NCBI GenBank assembly: GCA_009841105.1
Contig: VXMM01000023.1
Location: 124,001 to 188,000, forward strand
Length of the DNA stretch: 64,000 nt
DNA from: Acidimicrobiia bacterium
GTDB taxonomy: Bacteria; Actinomycetota; Acidimicrobiia; Spongiisociales; Spongiisociaceae
Direction of reading: 5' to 3'
Each line of letters starts with the position of its first letter. Position 1 is the first letter of the stretch. Below the pieces are notes generated by a model, which was not told the DNA's origin, made no database searches, and saw only the letters and a program-made list of their open reading frames with translations. This document shows positions 1,948-25,667 of the stretch, one piece after another. The position numbers and the translations under genes were made by a program.

Positions 1948-3206
1948 CGAGGATATAGGGTCACCAGGCGGAGGACGTTCATGGCGACCATCGCCCACCA
2001 GACGGCGCTGATCGACCCGGCCATGAGCAACAGCAGGCATGCCACCCCCGCGGCGAAGACCGTCGCCTTGGCCATGTACGTGAATTCGGTGGCTCCGATC
2101 ATGACTCCGTCCAGTACGAATATCAGGCCGTTCAGGGGCTGGCTCAGGGCGACGATCGGCATCAGGGTGATCGCGAGCGCGGCCACCCCCGGATCGGTGG
2201 TGAACCATCCGGGCAGGTCGTGACGTACCAACCAGAAGGCCGCCGCCAGGAGCACACCCCAGCACAGCCCCCAAAGGAGCATCCGTTGCGAGAAGCGGTG
2301 GGCGGCCGCCCGGTCGGTGGCGAGATGGCCCGCCACCAGGTTCTGGGCGGCGATCGCCACCGAATCGACGATCAGGGTCAGGAAGAACCACATCTGGACC
2401 GCCACCTGGTGGGCAGCCACTTCGGCATCGCCCAAGCGAGCCGCGACCGCCACCGCCACCGTGAGCGTGGCCACGAGCGCCGAGGTCCGCACGAACAGCG
2501 CCGACCCGGCGCCGATCAGTTCCCGCAGGTCATCCCACCGGGGCCAGGCCCGGCGCAGGACCAGCCCGGTGTGTCCCGTCAGGAAGTAATAGAGGAATGC
2601 TCCCCCGCCCAGGGTCTGCGCGATCACCGAGGCGAAACCGGCGCCGGCCAGTCCCCATCCCATTCCGAAGATGAACACGGGATCGAGAACCAGGTTGACG
2701 AGGCTGAGGCCGAAGCTGATGAACATGGGGGTCCGGGTGTCGCCCACCCCGCGGTACACCGAGTGCCCGACGGAGATCATCAGGATCGCGGGCAGGCCGA
2801 GGCCGCGGATCCGCAGGTAGGAGATGGCGTGAGGCGCGACATCCGGCCCGGCGCCCATCAGGCCGACCAACTGAGGCGCGGCGCCTTCGACCAGGACCAG
2901 ACCGCCTGCCCCCAGCACGGCCGCCACGAACAGGGATTGTCCGGCCAGCTCAGCCGCCCGGTCGCGGTCACCGATTCCGATCGCCCGGGCTATGAGCGGT
3001 GTTCCGGCGTAGGCCAAGGCGATGAAGACGAAGAACGCCAAGCCGAGGATGCCGGTCACCACCCCCATCGCTGCGAGAGGGTCCTCGCCGAGGCGTCCTA
3101 CGAAGGCGGTGTCGACCAGCGCCACCAGCGGCTCGGCGGCCAGCGCGCCCAGGGCCGGAACGGCCAGGCGGGCGATGGCGCGGTCGTCATCGGTGATCCG
3201 GAACAT
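1929..3206 (-). CDS. MATE-family efflux transporter (DinF-like)
   Basis: 425-residue membrane protein of the MATE family, which exports drugs or metabolites in exchange for Na+ or H+. The N-terminal signature is clear (LAVPALGALAAEPLVALVDT, then FVGRLG), as is the mirrored second half. I chose the ATG at 3206 (MFRITDDDRAIARLAVP) because it is where family similarity begins; the reading frame is open upstream to 3374 but reads as low-complexity, non-conserved sequence overlapping the nth promoter. It is divergent from nth (92-nt gap) and convergent with the MFS gene. Substrate unknown. Confidence 0.9.
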   Translation of the reverse strand: MFRITDDDRAIARLAVPALGALAAEPLVALVDTAFVGRLGEDPLAAMGVVTGILGLAFFVFIALAYAGTPLIARAIGIGDRDRAAELAGQSLFVAAVLGAGGLVLVEGAAPQLVGLMGAGPDVAPHAISYLRIRGLGLPAILMISVGHSVYRGVGDTRTPMFISFGLSLVNLVLDPVFIFGMGWGLAGAGFASVIAQTLGGGAFLYYFLTGHTGLVLRRAWPRWDDLRELIGAGSALFVRTSALVATLTVAVAVAARLGDAEVAAHQVAVQMWFFLTLIVDSVAIAAQNLVAGHLATDRAAAHRFSQRMLLWGLCWGVLLAAAFWLVRHDLPGWFTTDPGVAALAITLMPIVALSQPLNGLIFVLDGVMIGATEFTYMAKATVFAAGVACLLLLMAGSISAVWWAMVAMNVLRLVTLYPRYRLVV

Positions 3207-13739: not shown

Positions 13740-14045
13740 TCACCTGATCACGCGGTAGCGGTTCTTGGTGACCCTCACGAAGTACATGATTATGGCGCCC
13801 ACCACCGCGGCGGTACCGAGTAGCAGCGTGGCCGGTACCAGGAACCGGTAGGACCATTCGGGTTCGGGTTCCGCAGGGGGATCGTCAGGAACCGGAACAG
13901 CCGGCACGGGCGCATCCGCCGCCGGGGTCTCGTCAGCCGCACCTGCCGGAAGGGGGGAGGCAACCAACCAGGCACCGAGGACCAACCCCACGAGCAACCA
14001 TGCGACCGAACCCCTAAGAGCCCTAGTACGTGCCGCCCCTGCCAT
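13740..14045 (-). CDS. small secreted/membrane-anchored protein, unknown function
   Basis: 101-residue protein with an N-terminal signal or membrane segment (residues ~13-36, AWLLVGLVLGAWLVASPLPA), a Pro/Ala/Asp-rich linker (residues ~38-62), one more membrane helix (residues ~68-88, FLVPATLLLGTAAVVGAI) and a short basic tail (RVTKNRYRVIR). The topology suggests an exported linker tethered at its C-terminus. It starts immediately below an unusual AT-rich spacer that may carry its promoter. No family recognised. Confidence 0.65.
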   Translation of the reverse strand: MAGAARTRALRGSVAWLLVGLVLGAWLVASPLPAGAADETPAADAPVPAVPVPDDPPAEPEPEWSYRFLVPATLLLGTAAVVGAIIMYFVRVTKNRYRVIR

Positions 14046-14065
14046 GGAGTCGATTCTACCAGCCT

Positions 14066-14172
14066 CAGTTAGTCAGTTGGTTGTAGTTTGTAGTATGTAG
14101 TTTATAGTTATTAATTATATTAAACTAGTTAGTAGGCTATAATTAGTTAACTAGTGACTAATAAGTGTCCAC
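14066..14172. other. AT-rich spacer (about 26% G+C) with TAGT-type repeats
   Basis: About 100 nt of strongly AT-rich sequence in a genome that is otherwise roughly two-thirds G+C. It is built of repeated TAGT/TAGTT words and contains TATAAT on both strands. It lies between the 3' end of the MpaB-like gene and the start of the small membrane protein gene, both on the minus strand. It could be a promoter region, a site for a nucleoid protein or a replication/recombination element. I see no coding potential in it. Confidence 0.8.
14124..14155. repeat. 8-bp inverted repeat inside the AT-rich spacer
   Basis: ACTAGTTA at 14124-14131 is matched by its perfect reverse complement TAACTAGT at 14148-14155, with a 16-nt loop that itself contains TATAAT. 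It could be a weak hairpin or a protein-binding site. No run of T follows, so it is not a standard intrinsic terminator. Confidence 0.6.
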
Positions 14173-14174
14173 TA

Positions 14175-15098
14175 TCAACCAGGAAGCTGCCAGCCGGGCG
14201 GGACATCGACCGGGAGGGGTTGGCGGAACACGCCTTCGGGAATCGGGCTGCCGGTGCGGATCAACGCCAGGTTCCAGGTGGGTGAGAACCCCAGCACGGA
14301 CCGGAGCAACCTCACCCCTACCGCACCGGCCGGCCGGCTGCCACGGCGGAGCCGGATCCCGAGCAAGTCTCTGATCCGACCCGGAACGATCGAGACCGCC
14401 CCGAGGTAGAGGAGCCGGTAACCGACTCTCTGTACCCGGTCGAACGGCGGGTCTGCCAGGAAGTCCACCGCTGACCGCATCCCGGGTGACGGAGCCAGGT
14501 CCGGATGATCCGCCACCCAGCGCGACAGCGAGGCGGCCTCCTCGGGCACTGGCTCGGCACCCAGCATCCGCCCGATCCGGGCCTGCTCCCGTACGAAGCG
14601 ATCAGCGTCGGTCGAGGTCAGGGCAGCCGCCCCGAATGCCCTGTGGGCCGCCAGGAACGAATCCGTGAGCACGTTGTGCACCCAGGCGGACAGGTCCGGA
14701 GCGGCTGCCGAGTATGGCCGCCCGCGATGGGACTCTCCCTCCACGCGGCCATGAACCTGCCGGACCGCCTCCACGGCGCGCTCAACCTCAGGACCGGCAC
14801 CGAACGTGGTGGCGGTGACGTAGGCGGAGGTCCGTGACAGCCGGCCCAGCGGATCGACCCGGTAGCGGGAGTGGTCGGCAACCCCGGCGACCACCTCCGG
14901 ATGGGAACTCTGGATCAGCAACGCCCTTATGCCGCCCACGAAGGCGGCCACGTCCGAAATGACCGACCAGGACACGGATCCGGGACCGCACACGCCGGGG
15001 TCGCCGGGAAAGTCCAGGGTATGGCGCAGGGGATACTCGATATGGCCGAACGGGCCTGTGGCAGAGGCTCGGACCCGGGTCCGCCACGACTCCCCCAT
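14175..15098 (-). CDS. oxygenase MpaB family protein (DUF2236)
   Basis: 307-residue protein of the MpaB/DUF2236 family, members of which are haem-type oxygenases or latex-clearing-like proteins. Family features seen are an N-terminal GPGSVSWSVISDVAAFVGG, the RALLIQSSHPEVVAGVADHS block with its conserved His, the R-x-x-R-T-x-x-Y-V-x-x-T-x-F-G block (LSRTSAYVTATTFG), and the WVHNVLTDSF segment. It precedes the AT-rich spacer and follows an RsrA-like gene. The substrate is unknown; these genes are typically numerous in actinobacteria. Confidence 0.85.
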   Translation of the reverse strand: MGESWRTRVRASATGPFGHIEYPLRHTLDFPGDPGVCGPGSVSWSVISDVAAFVGGIRALLIQSSHPEVVAGVADHSRYRVDPLGRLSRTSAYVTATTFGAGPEVERAVEAVRQVHGRVEGESHRGRPYSAAAPDLSAWVHNVLTDSFLAAHRAFGAAALTSTDADRFVREQARIGRMLGAEPVPEEAASLSRWVADHPDLAPSPGMRSAVDFLADPPFDRVQRVGYRLLYLGAVSIVPGRIRDLLGIRLRRGSRPAGAVGVRLLRSVLGFSPTWNLALIRTGSPIPEGVFRQPLPVDVPPGWQLPG

Positions 15099-15933: not shown

Positions 15934-16029
15934 CCGTCCCGTCCTAGCTACCCACTGCCACGGGCGATCCGCCGGCTTGCCGTGGCCACGAAGCTCACGC
16001 TTCCGGGCACAAACCGCGTGATGCCTAAG

Positions 16030-16101
16030 AGCCGGAGAGGGGATTCGAACCCCTGGCCTGCTCATTACGAGTGAGCTGCTCTACCCCTGAGCTACTCCGG
16101 C
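16030..16101 (-). tRNA. tRNA-Thr (anticodon CGT)
   Basis: On the minus strand a complete cloverleaf folds: acceptor GCCGGAG/CTCCGGC, D-arm GCTC/GAGC, anticodon stem GCTCA/TGAGC with loop CTCGTAA (anticodon CGT, reading ACG), a 5-nt variable loop, and T-arm AGGGG/CCCCT with loop TTCGAAT. The discriminator base is T and no CCA is encoded. It lies alone between the sigma factor and the acyltransferase genes. Confidence 0.97.
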
Positions 16102-17934: not shown

Positions 17935-18600
17935 TCAGGCCTTGCGGGCCAGGAGCAGGCCGTCCGCAACCGGCAGGAGGGTGACGTCCACTACTCGGCC
18001 ATCCCGGCCGATCTCGGCGGTCAGGTCCCGGAGAATGGACGTCTGCCGGCCGCTGTCGGCAGGGTCGACCACCCGCCCGCTCCAGAGGATGTTGTCAAAG
18101 ATCATCAGCCCGCCGGAGCGCAGTAGGGACAGGCAACGCTCGTAGTACCCGGGGTAGTTCTCCTTGTCGGCGTCGATGAAGGCCAGGTCGAACTCACCAC
18201 CCTTTCCTTCCCGGATCAAGCCGTCCAGCGTTTCGATGGCAGGACCGAGCCGCAGGTCGATCCGGTCGGCCACGCCTGCTCGCTCCCAGTAGCCGCGGGC
18301 CACATCCGTGTAGTCGACGCTGATGTCACAGGCCACCAGCGTGCCGCCGTCTCGCATCGCGCGGGCCATGGAGAGACTGCTGTAGCCGGTGAACACACCA
18401 ATCTCGATGATGCGGGTCGCGTCCATGAGCTTCACCAGCATCCCCATGAACTGGCCCTGGTCCGGTGAGATCTGCATGTTGGACTCGGGCATATGCCCGG
18501 TCACTTCCCGTAGATCGCGGCCCAGATCGTCCTCCCGGAGAGTGTTGGCCAGGATGTACTCGTACAACTCCGCCGAGATGTACCGGTTGCCGATGCTCAT
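17935..18600 (-). CDS. SAM-dependent O-methyltransferase, class I (caffeoyl-CoA OMT-like)
   Basis: 221-residue methyltransferase. The SAM motif I is IIEIGVFTGYSSLSMA, followed by LVACDIS (motif II region) and FDLAFIDADKENYPGYYE, the metal-binding acidic stretch typical of the cation-dependent catechol/caffeoyl-CoA group. DNILWSGRVVDP further on is also typical. The start ATG 18600 is clear. It could methylate a catechol-type metabolite; the actual substrate is unknown. It lies 139 nt after holB, and that gap carries a copy of a dispersed repeat. Confidence 0.92.
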   Translation of the reverse strand: MSIGNRYISAELYEYILANTLREDDLGRDLREVTGHMPESNMQISPDQGQFMGMLVKLMDATRIIEIGVFTGYSSLSMARAMRDGGTLVACDISVDYTDVARGYWERAGVADRIDLRLGPAIETLDGLIREGKGGEFDLAFIDADKENYPGYYERCLSLLRSGGLMIFDNILWSGRVVDPADSGRQTSILRDLTAEIGRDGRVVDVTLLPVADGLLLARKA

Positions 18601-18702
18601 GCTTCTACCTCGTGTTCCCTTCTCGAGTGATGTTACAGGCGACCCATCGGCCAGTAACCAATGGCCTTCAACTAGTTGATCGTGGTCACGGGACCCGCGA
18701 TA

Positions 18703-18736
18703 ACAAACGAGCGCTCATAGCGTGAACACGTCCTAG
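18703..18736. repeat. 34-bp dispersed repeat, copy 1 (3' of holB)
   Basis: 34 nt matching 58455-58488 at 31 positions. The conserved core is ATAGCGTGAACACG and the outer part is ACAAACGA. It begins just 3' of the holB stop codon. The core CGTGAACACG is itself a near-palindrome (CGTG-AA-CACG). No T-run is present, so it is not a classical terminator. Confidence 0.75.
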
Positions 18737-18739
18737 CAA

Positions 18740-19807
18740 CTAGCAATCGGCTAGGCGGTTGAAGAGCCAGGTCAACACCAGTCTGGGGCGCTGGTTCTGC
18801 CGGAGTTGGACGCCGGCATCGATCACCAATTCCGCCGAGCGCGTCGCCGGACGAGCCGGCACCTTCGCCAACTCGGTCCTCGGCACGTCCGGGTTGCGGA
18901 CCGGCCCACCGTGCTGGACGGAGGCCGCGTCCAGGTACCAGGAGGCCAACATATCCAAGCCGGCCATCAGCAACGACTTGCCGGTCCGCCGCAAGGTGCG
19001 CTCGTAACCGTCGCGTAATGCCTTCGGCACCGCGTTCCCGCGTGACTTGAATGCCTTGATCTCCTGCTCGCGGCGGGCCTTGATCCCCTCCAGGAGAGGC
19101 TCGTGGGCTTCGAGCATCTCCTCCGCCAGACGGAAGCCATGGCCGGGTTGGGACGGGAGTCGACCCGGAACCGCCAGCCATGACTGCCGGAAAGCCGCCA
19201 CCTCGTTGCTGTTCGCCAGGTCCAGTGCCAGGCCCGGCCTTCCCCCCGCAATCCGGGCGATCATCGACGCCCTCTCCGCTTCCGTGTCCCGTTCTACCAG
19301 TGCGGCTGCAAGCTCTCCCTCCGGCACCTGCCTGAAGCGCACCAACCGGCAACGGCTCGCCACCGTGGGAGGGAGGTCGTCGGCCGACTCCGCCACCAGC
19401 ACGAATACCGTCCGGGGCGGGGGCTCCTCCAACGTCTTGAGCAGGGCGTTGGCTGCTGCCTCCGTCATCGTCGAAGCCTCGTCGAGAATGAACACCTTCC
19501 GGTCGGCCTCCACGGGGCGGAGGCTGGCGGCGGTGATCGCCTCCCGGGCCTGACCGACCCCGAAACCGGCCCGACCCTCGGGTCCGATCATCACCACATC
19601 GGGGTGGCTCCTTCGCATCACCCGATCCCTGCCGGCCTCCGACCGGCTCACCAACTCCGCCGCGAAGGAGAGGGCCACGGTGGCCTTTCCGACACCGGAC
19701 GGTCCGGCGAACAGGTAGGAGTGGGCCGGCGACGCCGCCTCGGCGGCCAGCGCGTCCAGGGTGTCCCGGTGGCCGATAATTCCGGCGCCGATGGGCAACT
19801 CCGCCAT
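18740..19807 (-). CDS. holB: DNA polymerase III subunit delta'
   Basis: 355-residue clamp-loader subunit. The AAA+ P-loop is GPSGVGKATVALSFA, followed by KVFILDEASTMTEAAANALLKTLEEPP (the Walker B and sensor region) and the SRC motif in TVASRCRLVRF. The ATG at 19807 overlaps the tmk stop by one base (TGATG). The tmk-holB pairing is widespread in bacteria. The frame is open upstream to 20227 but lies within tmk and is spurious. Confidence 0.95.
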   Translation of the reverse strand: MAELPIGAGIIGHRDTLDALAAEAASPAHSYLFAGPSGVGKATVALSFAAELVSRSEAGRDRVMRRSHPDVVMIGPEGRAGFGVGQAREAITAASLRPVEADRKVFILDEASTMTEAAANALLKTLEEPPPRTVFVLVAESADDLPPTVASRCRLVRFRQVPEGELAAALVERDTEAERASMIARIAGGRPGLALDLANSNEVAAFRQSWLAVPGRLPSQPGHGFRLAEEMLEAHEPLLEGIKARREQEIKAFKSRGNAVPKALRDGYERTLRRTGKSLLMAGLDMLASWYLDAASVQHGGPVRNPDVPRTELAKVPARPATRSAELVIDAGVQLRQNQRPRLVLTWLFNRLADC

Positions 19808-20406
19808 CAGGCTCGGGCCTCCAGAGCGTTCCAGGCGGCGGCAAGCACCTGCTCCATAGGACGCCCGGCGTCGACCACCACGAAGCGATCCGGCTCGTCG
19901 CGGGCAAGGCCGGCGAAGCCCTTGGCAACCGCCTCGAGGAACGCAAGCCCCTGGGAGCCGATCCGATCCGGTCTGGCCTGGCGATCGAGGCCCTGCTGCG
20001 GGGAAACGGTAAGCAGCAGCACCACATCGGGCCAGGTACTCCCCAGGCCGGGCTGGTTGATCCGGCGGACGCGGTCCACGCCCAGCTGGCGACCCGCACC
20101 CTGGTAGGCGAGCGACGAGTACACGGAGCGGTCGCTGAGCACCCAGGCGCCCCGATCGAGTGCGGGACGGATCACGTCGGTGACGAGCTGGGCCCGCGCC
20201 GCTGCGAACATCAGCGCTTCCGCCCACGGGGTTACCGGCGGCCCGTCCAGGAGGATCCGCCGCAAGCCCTCCCCCGCCGCGGTCCCACCCGGTTCCCGCA
20301 CCCGCATCACCTCGTGGCCGGCCTCCTCCAGGAGAAGGGCCAGCGCGGTCGAGACGCTGGTCTTGCCGGCCCCGTCGATACCCTCGAGCGCTACGTAACG
20401 GTTCAT
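19807..20406 (-). CDS. tmk: thymidylate kinase
   Basis: 199-residue dTMP kinase from ATG 20406 (MNRYVALEGIDGAGKTSVST). The P-loop GIDGAGKTS, the DR(x) motif in LSDRSVYSSLAYQGAGR and the REPGGT substrate loop (VREPGGTAAGE) are intact. It makes dTDP for DNA synthesis and is coupled to holB downstream by a 1-nt overlap. It begins 28 nt after the MFS gene stop, so the three may be one transcription unit. Confidence 0.96.
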   Translation of the reverse strand: MNRYVALEGIDGAGKTSVSTALALLLEEAGHEVMRVREPGGTAAGEGLRRILLDGPPVTPWAEALMFAAARAQLVTDVIRPALDRGAWVLSDRSVYSSLAYQGAGRQLGVDRVRRINQPGLGSTWPDVVLLLTVSPQQGLDRQARPDRIGSQGLAFLEAVAKGFAGLARDEPDRFVVVDAGRPMEQVLAAAWNALEARA

Positions 20407-21942: not shown

Positions 21943-24516
21943 ATGGCCAAGCCGCTCATCATCGTCGAATCCAACGCCAAGGCCAAGACCATCGGGAGCT
22001 ACCTGGGAGGGGGCTACCGGGTGGAGTCCTGCCAGGGGCACATCCGGGACCTGCCCGACCGCGCCCAGCAGATCCCCGCCAAGTACCGGGACCAGCCCTG
22101 GGCCAAGAACTGGGGGGTCGATGTAAATAACGATTTCCAACCCCTGTACATCGTTCCCAGCGACCGGCGCCGTATCGTATCCAAACTGCGGCAAGCAGCT
22201 AAGGAGGCATCCGAGCTGTACCTGGCAACCGACGAGGACCGCGAGGGAGAGGCCATCGCCTGGCACCTCACCGAGGTGCTCAAGCCCAAGGTTCCGACCC
22301 ACCGGATGGCGTTCCACGAGATCACCCCGGGCGCGATCCGCAACGCCCTGGCCAACCCCCGCACCATCGACAGCTACCGGGTCGACGCCCAGGAAGCCCG
22401 GCGAACTCTGGACCGGCTGGTCGGCTACGGCGTGTCGCCGGTGCTGTGGCGCAAGGTCAGGAGGGGCCTCTCCGCGGGACGTGTCCAGAGCGTGGCGGTA
22501 CGCCTGCTGGTGGAGCGGGAACGCCGGCGGATCGCGTTCCGATCGGCCAGCTTCTGGAACGTGGAGGCCCGGCTCGTCACCGGCGGCGGTGAGGACTTCC
22601 AGGCCCATCTGGTGGCCGTGGACGGCGTGCGTCCGGCCGGGAGCAGGGACTTCGACTCCCGGGGGAACCTGGAGTCGGACCGGGTCACACTCCTCGACGA
22701 GACCCGGTCGGACCGGCTCGCCCGGGCTATCGAGGGCTCCTTGTTGCGGATCCGTTCGGTGGACCGCAGGCCGTATACCCGCAAGCCCCAGGCTCCCTTC
22801 CGCACCTCGACCCTCCAGCGAGAGGCCTCCACCAGGCTGCGTTTCGAGCCGGGCCGGACCATGCGGGCCGCCCAGTCCCTCTACGAGAACGGCTATATCA
22901 CCTACATGCGGACCGACAGCATCACCCTGTCGGAGACCGCCCTGAAGACGGCCCGCTCCGAGGTCGCGAAGCGGTTCGGCAACAACTACCTGCCCTCCGG
23001 ACCCATCCGGTACACCGGCAAGGTGGCCAACGCCCAGGAGGCGCACGAGGCCATCCGGCCCGCAGGCGACCGGTGGAGGACGCCCGAGGAAGTGGCGGCG
23101 CTGGTGTCCGACCGTGACCAGCACCTGGTCTACCAGTTGGTATGGGCCCGTACCCTGGCCTCGCAGATGGCGCCGGCCCGCGGCGAGTCCACCCGGGTCA
23201 GAGCGGGAACCATGCTCGATGACGGGACCGACTTGGAGTTCGAGGCCTCGGGCCTGGTCATCCGGTTCCCCGGCTTCCTGAGGGTCTATGCCCAGTCCGA
23301 CCGGGAGCGTCACCTGCCCCGGCTCGAGGTGGGCGACCAGGTAACCGCCCGGAACGCTCTCGCCAAGGAACACCGTACGGAGCCGCCGAGCCGGTACAGC
23401 GAGGCCTCCCTGATCAAGGAACTCGAGGACAGGGGAATCGGTAGGCCGTCCACCTACGCATCCACCGTTTCCACGATCATCGAGCGCGACTACGTGTTCA
23501 AGAAGAGAACCGCGCTGGTCCCGTCTGTGACGGCCTTTACCACCACGGAGCTACTGGAACGCCACTTCGACCACTTGGTCGACTACGGCTTCACCTCCCG
23601 CATGGAGGACGACCTCGACAAGATCGCCCGGGGCGAGGAGCGAAAGGTCCCATGGCTGAATCGCTTCTTCCACGGGAACGGGTCCCCCGGCCTGCTGGAG
23701 TTGATCGCCACCGAGCGAGTCAAGGAGATCGACCCCCGCAGCCTCTTCATCCGGATCGGGGAGGACACCTCCGGCGCGGAGGTGGTCGCGCGGGTGGGCA
23801 GGTACGGGCCGTATCTCGCGAGAGGCGAGGATCGAGCGTCGATTCCGGAAGATCTGCCGCCGGACGAGTTGACCCTCGAGAGAGCCGTGAAGCTCCTGGA
23901 AGCTCCTTCGGGCGACAAGATCCTCGGCACCGATCCTGACTCGGGTCTGACCGTCCTGGCTCGCAGCGGACGGTACGGGCCCTACGTGCAGCTCGGTGAG
24001 CAGGTCACGGGGTCACGCCAGAAGCCCAAGAGGACCTCCCTGCTGGCCGGCATGGAACTCGACGCCCTGAGCCTGGAGGACGCCCTGCGGCTCCTTTCCC
24101 TGCCCCGAACCGTGGGGGTTCATCCTGACACCGGCGAGGCCATCGTGGCGGGTCTGGGGCGCTACGGACCCTATCTGAAGATGGGTAAGGAGTACAGGAA
24201 CCTGAAGGATCAGGAACTTCTCTTCGGCATCACCCTGGAAGAGGCGGTCACGGCGATGAACCGGCCGAAGACCCGCCGAGGGGGTCGGCCCGCGCCACCT
24301 CTCAAAACGCTGGGCAAGGACCCGGAGGCCGGGGGCGAGATGGTGATCAAGACAGGGCGGTACGGGCCATACCTCACTGATGGCTCTGTGAACGTCTCCG
24401 TTCGAGAGGATGCCGTGGCCGGGTTGGGCCTCGAGGAGGCCGCCCGGCTTCTGGCTGCCAAGCGGGCGAAGCTGAAGAGCCAGGGCAAGTGGCCACCCAA
24501 GAAGAGGAAACGCTAG
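21943..24516 (+). CDS. topA: DNA topoisomerase I
   Basis: 857-residue type IA topoisomerase that relaxes negative supercoils. The Toprim domain begins with LIIVESNAKAKTI (Glu9) and includes TDEDREGEA (Asp97, Asp99). The catalytic tyrosine is Tyr321 in YMRTDS. The C-terminal part has several GRYGPY repeats and a Lys/Arg tail instead of Cys4 zinc fingers, the actinobacterial form. ATG 21943. Its last 4 nt overlap the convergent bactofilin-like gene. Confidence 0.98.
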   Translation: MAKPLIIVESNAKAKTIGSYLGGGYRVESCQGHIRDLPDRAQQIPAKYRDQPWAKNWGVDVNNDFQPLYIVPSDRRRIVSKLRQAAKEASELYLATDEDREGEAIAWHLTEVLKPKVPTHRMAFHEITPGAIRNALANPRTIDSYRVDAQEARRTLDRLVGYGVSPVLWRKVRRGLSAGRVQSVAVRLLVERERRRIAFRSASFWNVEARLVTGGGEDFQAHLVAVDGVRPAGSRDFDSRGNLESDRVTLLDETRSDRLARAIEGSLLRIRSVDRRPYTRKPQAPFRTSTLQREASTRLRFEPGRTMRAAQSLYENGYITYMRTDSITLSETALKTARSEVAKRFGNNYLPSGPIRYTGKVANAQEAHEAIRPAGDRWRTPEEVAALVSDRDQHLVYQLVWARTLASQMAPARGESTRVRAGTMLDDGTDLEFEASGLVIRFPGFLRVYAQSDRERHLPRLEVGDQVTARNALAKEHRTEPPSRYSEASLIKELEDRGIGRPSTYASTVSTIIERDYVFKKRTALVPSVTAFTTTELLERHFDHLVDYGFTSRMEDDLDKIARGEERKVPWLNRFFHGNGSPGLLELIATERVKEIDPRSLFIRIGEDTSGAEVVARVGRYGPYLARGEDRASIPEDLPPDELTLERAVKLLEAPSGDKILGTDPDSGLTVLARSGRYGPYVQLGEQVTGSRQKPKRTSLLAGMELDALSLEDALRLLSLPRTVGVHPDTGEAIVAGLGRYGPYLKMGKEYRNLKDQELLFGITLEEAVTAMNRPKTRRGGRPAPPLKTLGKDPEAGGEMVIKTGRYGPYLTDGSVNVSVREDAVAGLGLEEAARLLAAKRAKLKSQGKWPPKKRKR

Positions 24517-25667
24517 ACACGCCGCCACCGTTGTGGGATGTTGCGGAAGGCGACACCGAGGGCCATGACGGGCAGCACCGTCGCCAGGACCCCTCCCACG
24601 TACGGAACCTGGAGAAGGATCACGAACAGCAGGGCAGCCGCCAGGAACGACCCGTACGGTCCCATCCGGAACCTGGTCACGAGGCCCCACGCCCACACGA
24701 TCACCGGCACCGACCCCGCGATGAACGCGAGCAGGAACGCCAGGACGGCCGGAACGAGGCTCACCAGACCAGCAATCACGGCAGCCGTCACCACGCCGGG
24801 AGGCCCGGCCCAGATGGCCAGGACGGGAACGGTCACCGGCAGGGTCAGGATCAGGAGGGCCACCACTCCCCGAACCACGATCCCTACCGGGCGCCTGCGC
24901 ACGCGTTCGACGCAGGCATAGAGCCATCCCGGCCTGAAACGGATCGCCATCAACCCCATGGCGATGAACAACAGGAAGACCACCAGACCTCCCAGGAGGC
25001 GTCCCGCCCTCAACCAGAGGTCCGGCGCCAGGGGCACCCGGCGCACCAGAGTGCCCCCGATGGTGGCTCCGGGATCGATCTCGGCATCGTCGGCGCTCCG
25101 ATAGCCCAGGTCTCCGGCGATCACGGCGGCCGGACCGACCCGGAGATGGTCGACGGTCATCTCCACGTCCCGGCCCACCCGGCCGTCGATGGTGGCCCAG
25201 AGGGTCCGGCCGCCCAGGTCGCGACCCAGGCCGCCGTCGGTCACCAACCTGATAGCCCACACCAGCGCATCACCGCCGATCTCGCCCCCCAGCACCGCGT
25301 CGCGGGCCAGGATGGCCACCTCATCCCCCACTTCGCCCGACACATCGAGGTCGACGCCGGCCAGCCGGACCGACCCCTCCACCGCCCCCTCGATCGACAC
25401 CGTACGGGCGAAACCGACCACGTCCCCCGTCACCGAGCCCGTGACCTGGAGGCGGCTGGTGGCCACGACCACCAGGTCGCCCTCGATGGTCCCGTGGATC
25501 CGGACCACCGAGGCCGAGACGTACAGATTCTCCCCCACCACGTCCGACTCCGGGACGATGTAGATGTCCCCGCTGACCGTTTGGAGAGCCTCGGGGGCGC
25601 CGGAGGCCGTCAGGAGCAGTGCCGCCACACCCAACCCGAACAGCCTTGAAGCCAAGTGCTTAGACAC
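24513..25667 (-). CDS. bactofilin-like polymer-forming membrane protein
   Basis: 384-residue protein with an N-terminal signal segment (residues ~7-25), then ~190 residues of short repeating strands in the style of bactofilin/polymer-forming beta-helices (VRIHGTIEGDLVV, LQVTGSVTGDVVG, VSIEGAVEGSVRL). About four membrane segments follow toward the C-terminus. The start is GTG 25667, inside the end of nuoN by 8 nt, so it may be translated as the last cistron of the complex I operon. Exported beta-helices tethered by membrane helices are known, but the function here is unknown. Confidence 0.8.
   Translation of the reverse strand: MSKHLASRLFGLGVAALLLTASGAPEALQTVSGDIYIVPESDVVGENLYVSASVVRIHGTIEGDLVVVATSRLQVTGSVTGDVVGFARTVSIEGAVEGSVRLAGVDLDVSGEVGDEVAILARDAVLGGEIGGDALVWAIRLVTDGGLGRDLGGRTLWATIDGRVGRDVEMTVDHLRVGPAAVIAGDLGYRSADDAEIDPGATIGGTLVRRVPLAPDLWLRAGRLLGGLVVFLLFIAMGLMAIRFRPGWLYACVERVRRRPVGIVVRGVVALLILTLPVTVPVLAIWAGPPGVVTAAVIAGLVSLVPAVLAFLLAFIAGSVPVIVWAWGLVTRFRMGPYGSFLAAALLFVILLQVPYVGGVLATVLPVMALGVAFRNIPQRWRRV

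Follow-up and report, generated by a model that had tools for sequence, protein, structure and literature searches.

Degenerate heptanucleotide repeats in tandem, scattered over the intergenic DNA of cyanobacteria, are known as STRR heptamers; their units are other than CTAGTTG. Heptamer repeats are also known from other bacteria. The GGGNATC repeats of Xanthomonas and Nostoc are located near stop codons on the coding strand (Rehm et al. 2015, PMC4692102), and the stop-bearing TAACTGA heptamers of marine Beggiatoaceae are found mostly just before start codons (MacGregor 2015, PMC4679880). Mycobacterial interspersed repetitive units (MIRUs) insert at start codons (PMC12548453). The element considered here occupies a short AT-rich spacer at positions 14066 to 14172 of a 64,000-nucleotide stretch of contig VXMM01000023.1 from an Acidimicrobiia bacterium. 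The whole stretch is referred to as the window, and the genome that it comes from (G000; 3.05 Mb, 69 contigs) as the own genome. This spacer is very probably one decayed member of a family of short elements, built from heptanucleotide tandem repeats and dispersed at gene 3' ends in this lineage.

The element spans positions 14064 to 14175 on the reverse strand and reads along the upstream gene, which encodes an MpaB/Lcp-type oxygenase (14175 to 15098, reverse strand; PF09995, E = 2e-51) and has the element at its 3' end. It is recognized by a 7-base period and by alignment with the orthologous spacer of G006, a genome of the same genus. Identity at lag 7 in the spacer is 0.48, versus 0.30 ± 0.05 in shuffles that keep dinucleotide content, and none of 2,000 shuffles reached it (1 of 1,000 with slightly different spacer ends). 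Head-to-tail 7-nt units beyond chance define the bacterial heptanucleotide simple sequence repeats; such units are found in the spacer and are exact in the arrays of its relatives. The right arm, a degenerate (AACTACA)n array at approximately 14064 to 14108 (reverse strand), corresponds to (GACTACA)n in G006. Within the spacer, the 52 nt on the right-hand side have a lag-7 identity of 0.60 (0 of 1,000 shuffles), and TRF reports TTGTAGT in 4.1 copies on the forward strand at 14081 to 14109. The left arm, a decayed (CTAGTTG)n array at approximately 14117 to 14174 (reverse strand), was placed by alignment with G006 and G007.

Among the ten genus genomes, a conserved extended −10 lies 3 to 113 bp beyond the stop codon of the oxygenase gene. 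The spacers of G006 and G007 consist of CTAGTTG units followed by ACTACAG-type units, intact in G006 as (CTAGTTG)n and then (GACTACA)n. The number of units differs at this one place: the spacers measure 98 bp in G006 and 105 bp in G007, a 7-nt step, and that of G004 is shorter. Shorter, partly decayed forms are found in G004 and G003, G002 has CCGCTGA units only, and the spacer measures 3 bp in G001, G005, and G008 and 13 bp in G009. Alignment of the window and G006 spacers covers almost the full length of the former, with 69 of 90 columns identical; no shuffle among 1,000 reached the score against G006, G007, or G004, and 5 of 1,000 did so against G003. With G006 as a stand-in for the ancestor, 13 of 16 differences between G/C and A/T run from G/C to A/T and 3 in the other direction. 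Since the changes are mostly G/C losses, the AT-richness is best read as the decay of a repeat with a unit of approximately 43% G+C and not as a designed AT-rich signal. In the five species with a CTAGTTG-type element at this site (G000, G003, G004, G006, and G007), the oxygenase extends 2 to 4 residues past a conserved PPGW (PPDW in G003), compared with 11 residues in the element-free G005 and G008. The presence of the element at this site requires at least two changes on the tree, which is that of one gene and has few well-supported forks.

The preliminary description presented the spacer as approximately 26% G+C in a GC-rich genome, built of TAGT/TAGTT words with an inverted repeat and TATAAT on both strands, and unlike anything else in the window. 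Its composition is borne out, with 28.0% G+C versus 66.7% for the whole window. The lowest 40-mer and 60-mer in the island have 15% and 18.3% G+C, respectively, compared with 37.5% and 43.3% elsewhere in the window. A 16-base A/T run occurs only once in the whole own genome, in this spacer, which also holds the lowest 60-mer in 409 kb sampled from that genome, window included (the next has 23.3% G+C). The spacer is therefore extreme, yet other AT-rich spots exist, because the same sample contains 45 separate 60-mers at ≤45% G+C. The second most AT-rich 60-mer of the sample (L122, 15232 to 15291; 23% G+C) is by eye without an evident heptamer repeat. The words and symmetries fared less well. 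The nine TAGT words compare with 7.0 ± 1.4 in dinucleotide-preserving shuffles, of which 280 of 2,000 reach nine, so TAGT words by themselves are not special. The inverted repeat exists but is imperfect (72% over 25 nt), and the spacer folds no better than shuffles (z = −0.69). TATAAT is indeed present on both strands (14138, forward; 14114, reverse), although 3.65% of shuffles match this. Singularity within the window holds for base composition but not for the repeat, of which a two-unit relative lies at 18733 to 18746. When the spacer was searched against its own genome for DNA similarity, it matched only itself. The sole Rfam match was a nearby tRNA-Thr (CGT) at 16029 to 16101 (reverse strand), the single tRNA gene found in the window.

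Related elements were counted with a sequence profile, R1 (65 positions, built from 15 intact elements). Up to 131 candidates were scored per genome and the counts are lower bounds: at least 20 in the own genome and at least 43, 24, 44, 100, 27, 86, 81, and 46 in G001 to G008, respectively. G009 has none, two genomes of other genera have 31 (G010) and 0 (G011), and G013 has 1. Overall, matches occur in 12 of 40 genomes, including G027 from another family of the order, and in 9 of the 10 within the genus. Of the four roles suggested at first, a remnant of foreign DNA comes closest: the spacer is a remnant, that of a decayed repeat copy, but the repeat is at home in the lineage and foreignness is unsupported. 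The exact triple unit is found in 7 of 10 genus genomes, in 9 of 138 genomes of the order, and, among 396 genomes drawn from the phylum, in G000 only; a reversed control pattern had no matches in the order and matches in 2 of the 396. In sampled stretches, counts at lag 7 far exceed those at the other lags tested (multiples of 7 aside) in G006 (17 versus 0 to 1) and G007 (42 versus 0 to 6), but not in G011 (2 versus 0 to 9); the own-genome sample gave 3 versus 0 to 3, and one of the three is a chance match in GC-rich sequence. The stretches of G007 and some of those of G006 were picked around pattern matches, so densities there are not genome averages. These lag counts, and the gap counts given below, rest on a simple, unpublished gene caller based on codon usage.

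Along the host gene, intact copies are laid out as the gene, (CTAGTTG)n, in some copies a linker like CTAGTTTATRTTGGATTA, and then a second heptamer array such as (ACTGACC)n or (ACTAGAA / ACTACAG)n. In a viral collection, seven stretches contain the triple unit, with flanks that by eye have no linker; these stretches carry no gene calls and are excluded from the placement counts. The 22 R1 matches of G027 lie, at the places listed, in the second-array part of the model. The G027 arrays were rejected as the same element, being (ACTGACC)n without a CTAGTTG arm and showing, over 12 inspected loci, no consistent direction relative to gene ends; that genome has numerous arrays of the second unit only (L241, L252, and L269 to L278). 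Heptamer arrays of other units occur at 2946 to 3012 and 5232 to 5301 of L086, a more distant Acidimicrobiia-type contig, and their halves resemble reverse complements (GATGCCA and then GTGTCTG), a two-armed layout that is alike although the sequence is unrelated. In addition, contigs end inside heptamer arrays in G006 (C21), G007 (C95), G008 (C43), and G010 (C53 and C56) and at both ends of L154; long or identical arrays may therefore interrupt assemblies and be undercounted.

Placement was scored for 51 arrays, all distinct and containing two or more exact units; nine further arrays of this kind, of 60 in total, were too close to a contig or stretch end. A coding frame ends at the array on the sense side only in 45 and on both sides, between convergent genes, in 5; none has an antisense frame only, and 1 has a weak sense frame. 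TAG is the stop codon in 41 of 50 arrays, and in 26 it is the TAG of the first exact unit, compared with a background TAG share of 30 to 42% of coding stops in four sampled genus genomes. In the own genome, the sense side of nine elements was viewed, and in 9 of 9 a sense frame terminates in TAG no more than 27 nt away. Arrays are in excess in convergent gaps (22/29 versus 38/138 gaps in G007, P = 2e-6; 5/11 versus 24/137 in G006, P = 0.04) and rare in divergent ones of G007 (1/30 versus 44/182, P = 0.007), with none seen in those of G006 (0/11 versus 42/179, P = 0.13). If arrays simply avoid coding DNA and promoters, this can account for the convergent excess and the divergent rarity but not for the one-way orientation, since TAG is also present in CAACTAG, the reverse complement of the unit.

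Some gene ends are occupied in one species and empty in another. At 24501 to 24536 (forward strand), the window has an empty site at a gene 3' end, and the gene terminates with GAAACGCTAGACACGCCGCC. In G006, a full element separates the last codons from the matching CTAGACACGCCGCC; the gene therefore ends at a TAG of the array, with the old stop behind it. This is the one clean filled/empty pair, and no consistent duplication is apparent by eye among the pairs. The window also contains the second remnant mentioned above, TTGCTAGTTGCTAG, with two units at 18733 to 18746 (reverse strand), which is the best R1 match in the window (E = 0.055). Its first TAG is the stop codon of a DNA polymerase III delta'-like gene (18740 to 20227, reverse strand; PF13177). 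Arrays or remnants are found at this gene end in G003, G005, G006, G007, G008, and the window, other DNA in G002 and G004, and neither in G009. The extra DNA of G002 and G004 (L035, L038) lies between the delta'-like and O-methyltransferase genes, at the place orthologous to window positions 18600 to 18740, and resembles, by its sequence motifs, small toxin-antitoxin genes (ribbon-helix-helix and RelE/ParE-like).

The arrays are thus oriented in one direction, supply the stop codon in most copies, change in unit number, are present in some species and absent from others, and, in the window copy, have lost G/C. Units may be gained and lost by slippage or by hairpin-assisted misalignment, the unit containing the palindrome CTAG, and new copies could arise by a copying or insertion process that favors gene ends. 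Once placed, the sequence would be nearly unconstrained, and AT-biased mutation in a GC-rich genome would give it a foreign look. Any effect on the cell would most likely be mild, namely, a replacement stop codon with backup stops and a 3' untranslated tail. Little effect is expected on the downstream gene, whose −10 is located just past the element.

Several observations weigh against this interpretation of the spacer. R1 misses the window spacer, so its membership in the family rests on position, period, and alignment with orthologues: it occupies the orthologous place and can be aligned with intact members of the CTAGTTG gene-end family. It does not align with the G002 spacer (192 of 1,000 shuffles), and the period of 7 is not significant in the left arm alone (135 of 1,000). 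Not all copies have the second array or the linker: ACTGACC-type words follow 19 of the 51 arrays, CTAGARA/CTACARA-type words 10, and the linker 14. The remaining comparisons of filled with empty sites are less clear-cut, with cases of replaced DNA instead of a clean insertion. The window copy does not supply a stop as most copies do: the oxygenase gene ends in TGA, with TAG immediately after it.

Selection as a transcript-end device is conceivable, although rather doubtful. The RNA of (CTAGTTG)n would fold on itself, the array would end or protect the upstream transcript, and the second array, with a CC step every 7 nt, might be bound by Rho or a similar factor. Such a role agrees with the sense-only position at gene ends, with the excess between convergent genes (P = 2e-6 in G007 and 0.04 in G006), and with the folding of 14 of 39 intact arrays, which is more than 2 standard deviations better than in shuffles. 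However, the mean fold z score is just −1.5 and that of the window copy −0.69, a terminator scan gave no sites in 13900 to 14300, where a stable hairpin followed by a T run is lacking, and tolerance also predicts the convergent excess. In addition, the arrays are dispensable, because they are missing at the oxygenase gene in G001, G005, G008, and G009.

A fairly unlikely reading takes the arrays for a mobile, non-autonomous element that targets stop codons in a fixed orientation and gives the host gene its TAG. Such an element might spread by machinery that reads gene or transcript ends, and the window spacer would then be a fossil landing.

A role as the promoter region or an UP-like element of the downstream gene is improbable. 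That gene (13740 to 14045, reverse strand) encodes a 101-amino-acid membrane-like protein with no Pfam family and is matched beside the oxygenase by tblastn in 12 other genus or family genomes (G001 to G011 and G013). The tract lies directly upstream of its conserved extended −10, TGGTAGAAT (14053 to 14061, reverse strand), and contains TATAAT on both strands. The −10 has the form TGGTA[C/G][A/T]AT at the corresponding place in 10 of 10 genus genomes and, with the ATG 8 nt further on, the transcript may be leaderless. Nevertheless, it stands outside the AT-rich tract, which it does not need, because it is kept in relatives whose spacer measures 3 bp and in which GC-rich coding sequence precedes it. 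A scan gave no promoter hexamer pair, and the TATAAT pair recurs in shuffles at the frequency given above. The strong promoter that had been suggested is thus improbable. A duplex-unwinding element also seems unlikely: relatives have no tract or a GC-rich one here, and nothing indicates an origin.

Chance low-complexity sequence or an assembly artifact is very improbable; the TAGT count is within compositional expectation and the paired TATAAT only mildly unusual, but the 7-base period was matched by none of 2,000 shuffles and the alignments with separately assembled genomes by none of 1,000. An Lsr2-type silencer binding site on foreign DNA, although it would suit an AT-rich spot in a GC-rich actinobacterial genome, can be practically discounted, as the flanking genes have same-order orthologues across the genus and none of the 10 genus genomes matches Lsr2 in a search that was positive in the Corynebacterium glutamicum control and did not seek other xenogeneic silencers.

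With the spacer read as a decayed heptamer array, an oddity of AT composition becomes a traceable process, because sister species offer intact, decayed, and empty versions of one gene end for comparison. The origin and spread of bacterial heptanucleotide repeats, an old question, can be tested within one genus. Furthermore, conspicuous AT-richness of a spacer does not, in a genome rich in GC, have to mean a promoter or foreign DNA.

MIRUs carry an open reading frame and have units much longer than 7 nt, whereas the units of the CTAGTTG arrays are 7 nt and the arrays lie at stop codons. The likeness is that of short, seemingly mobile actinobacterial repeats inserted at gene boundaries with little gene damage (PMC12548453). 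The TAACTGA repeats point at the downstream gene (PMC4679880), whereas the CTAGTTG arrays are tied to the ends of genes and run in the direction of the upstream gene; the two differ both in unit and in place. The GGGNATC repeats are similar in being rare between divergent genes and in varying extensively in length among relatives, and they differ in having a G-rich, quadruplex-forming unit and a preference for four units (PMC4692102). The CTAGTTG arrays have no G-tract with which to form a quadruplex, carry a stop codon, and often have a second, different heptamer array next to them. The CTAGTTG gene-end element was not encountered in the literature searched on heptamer repeats and Acidimicrobiia tandem repeats, a coverage that mostly excludes subscription papers and leaves absence unproven. 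Heptamer repeats near stop codons are already known; the CTAGTTG unit and the oriented layout of two arrays look new.
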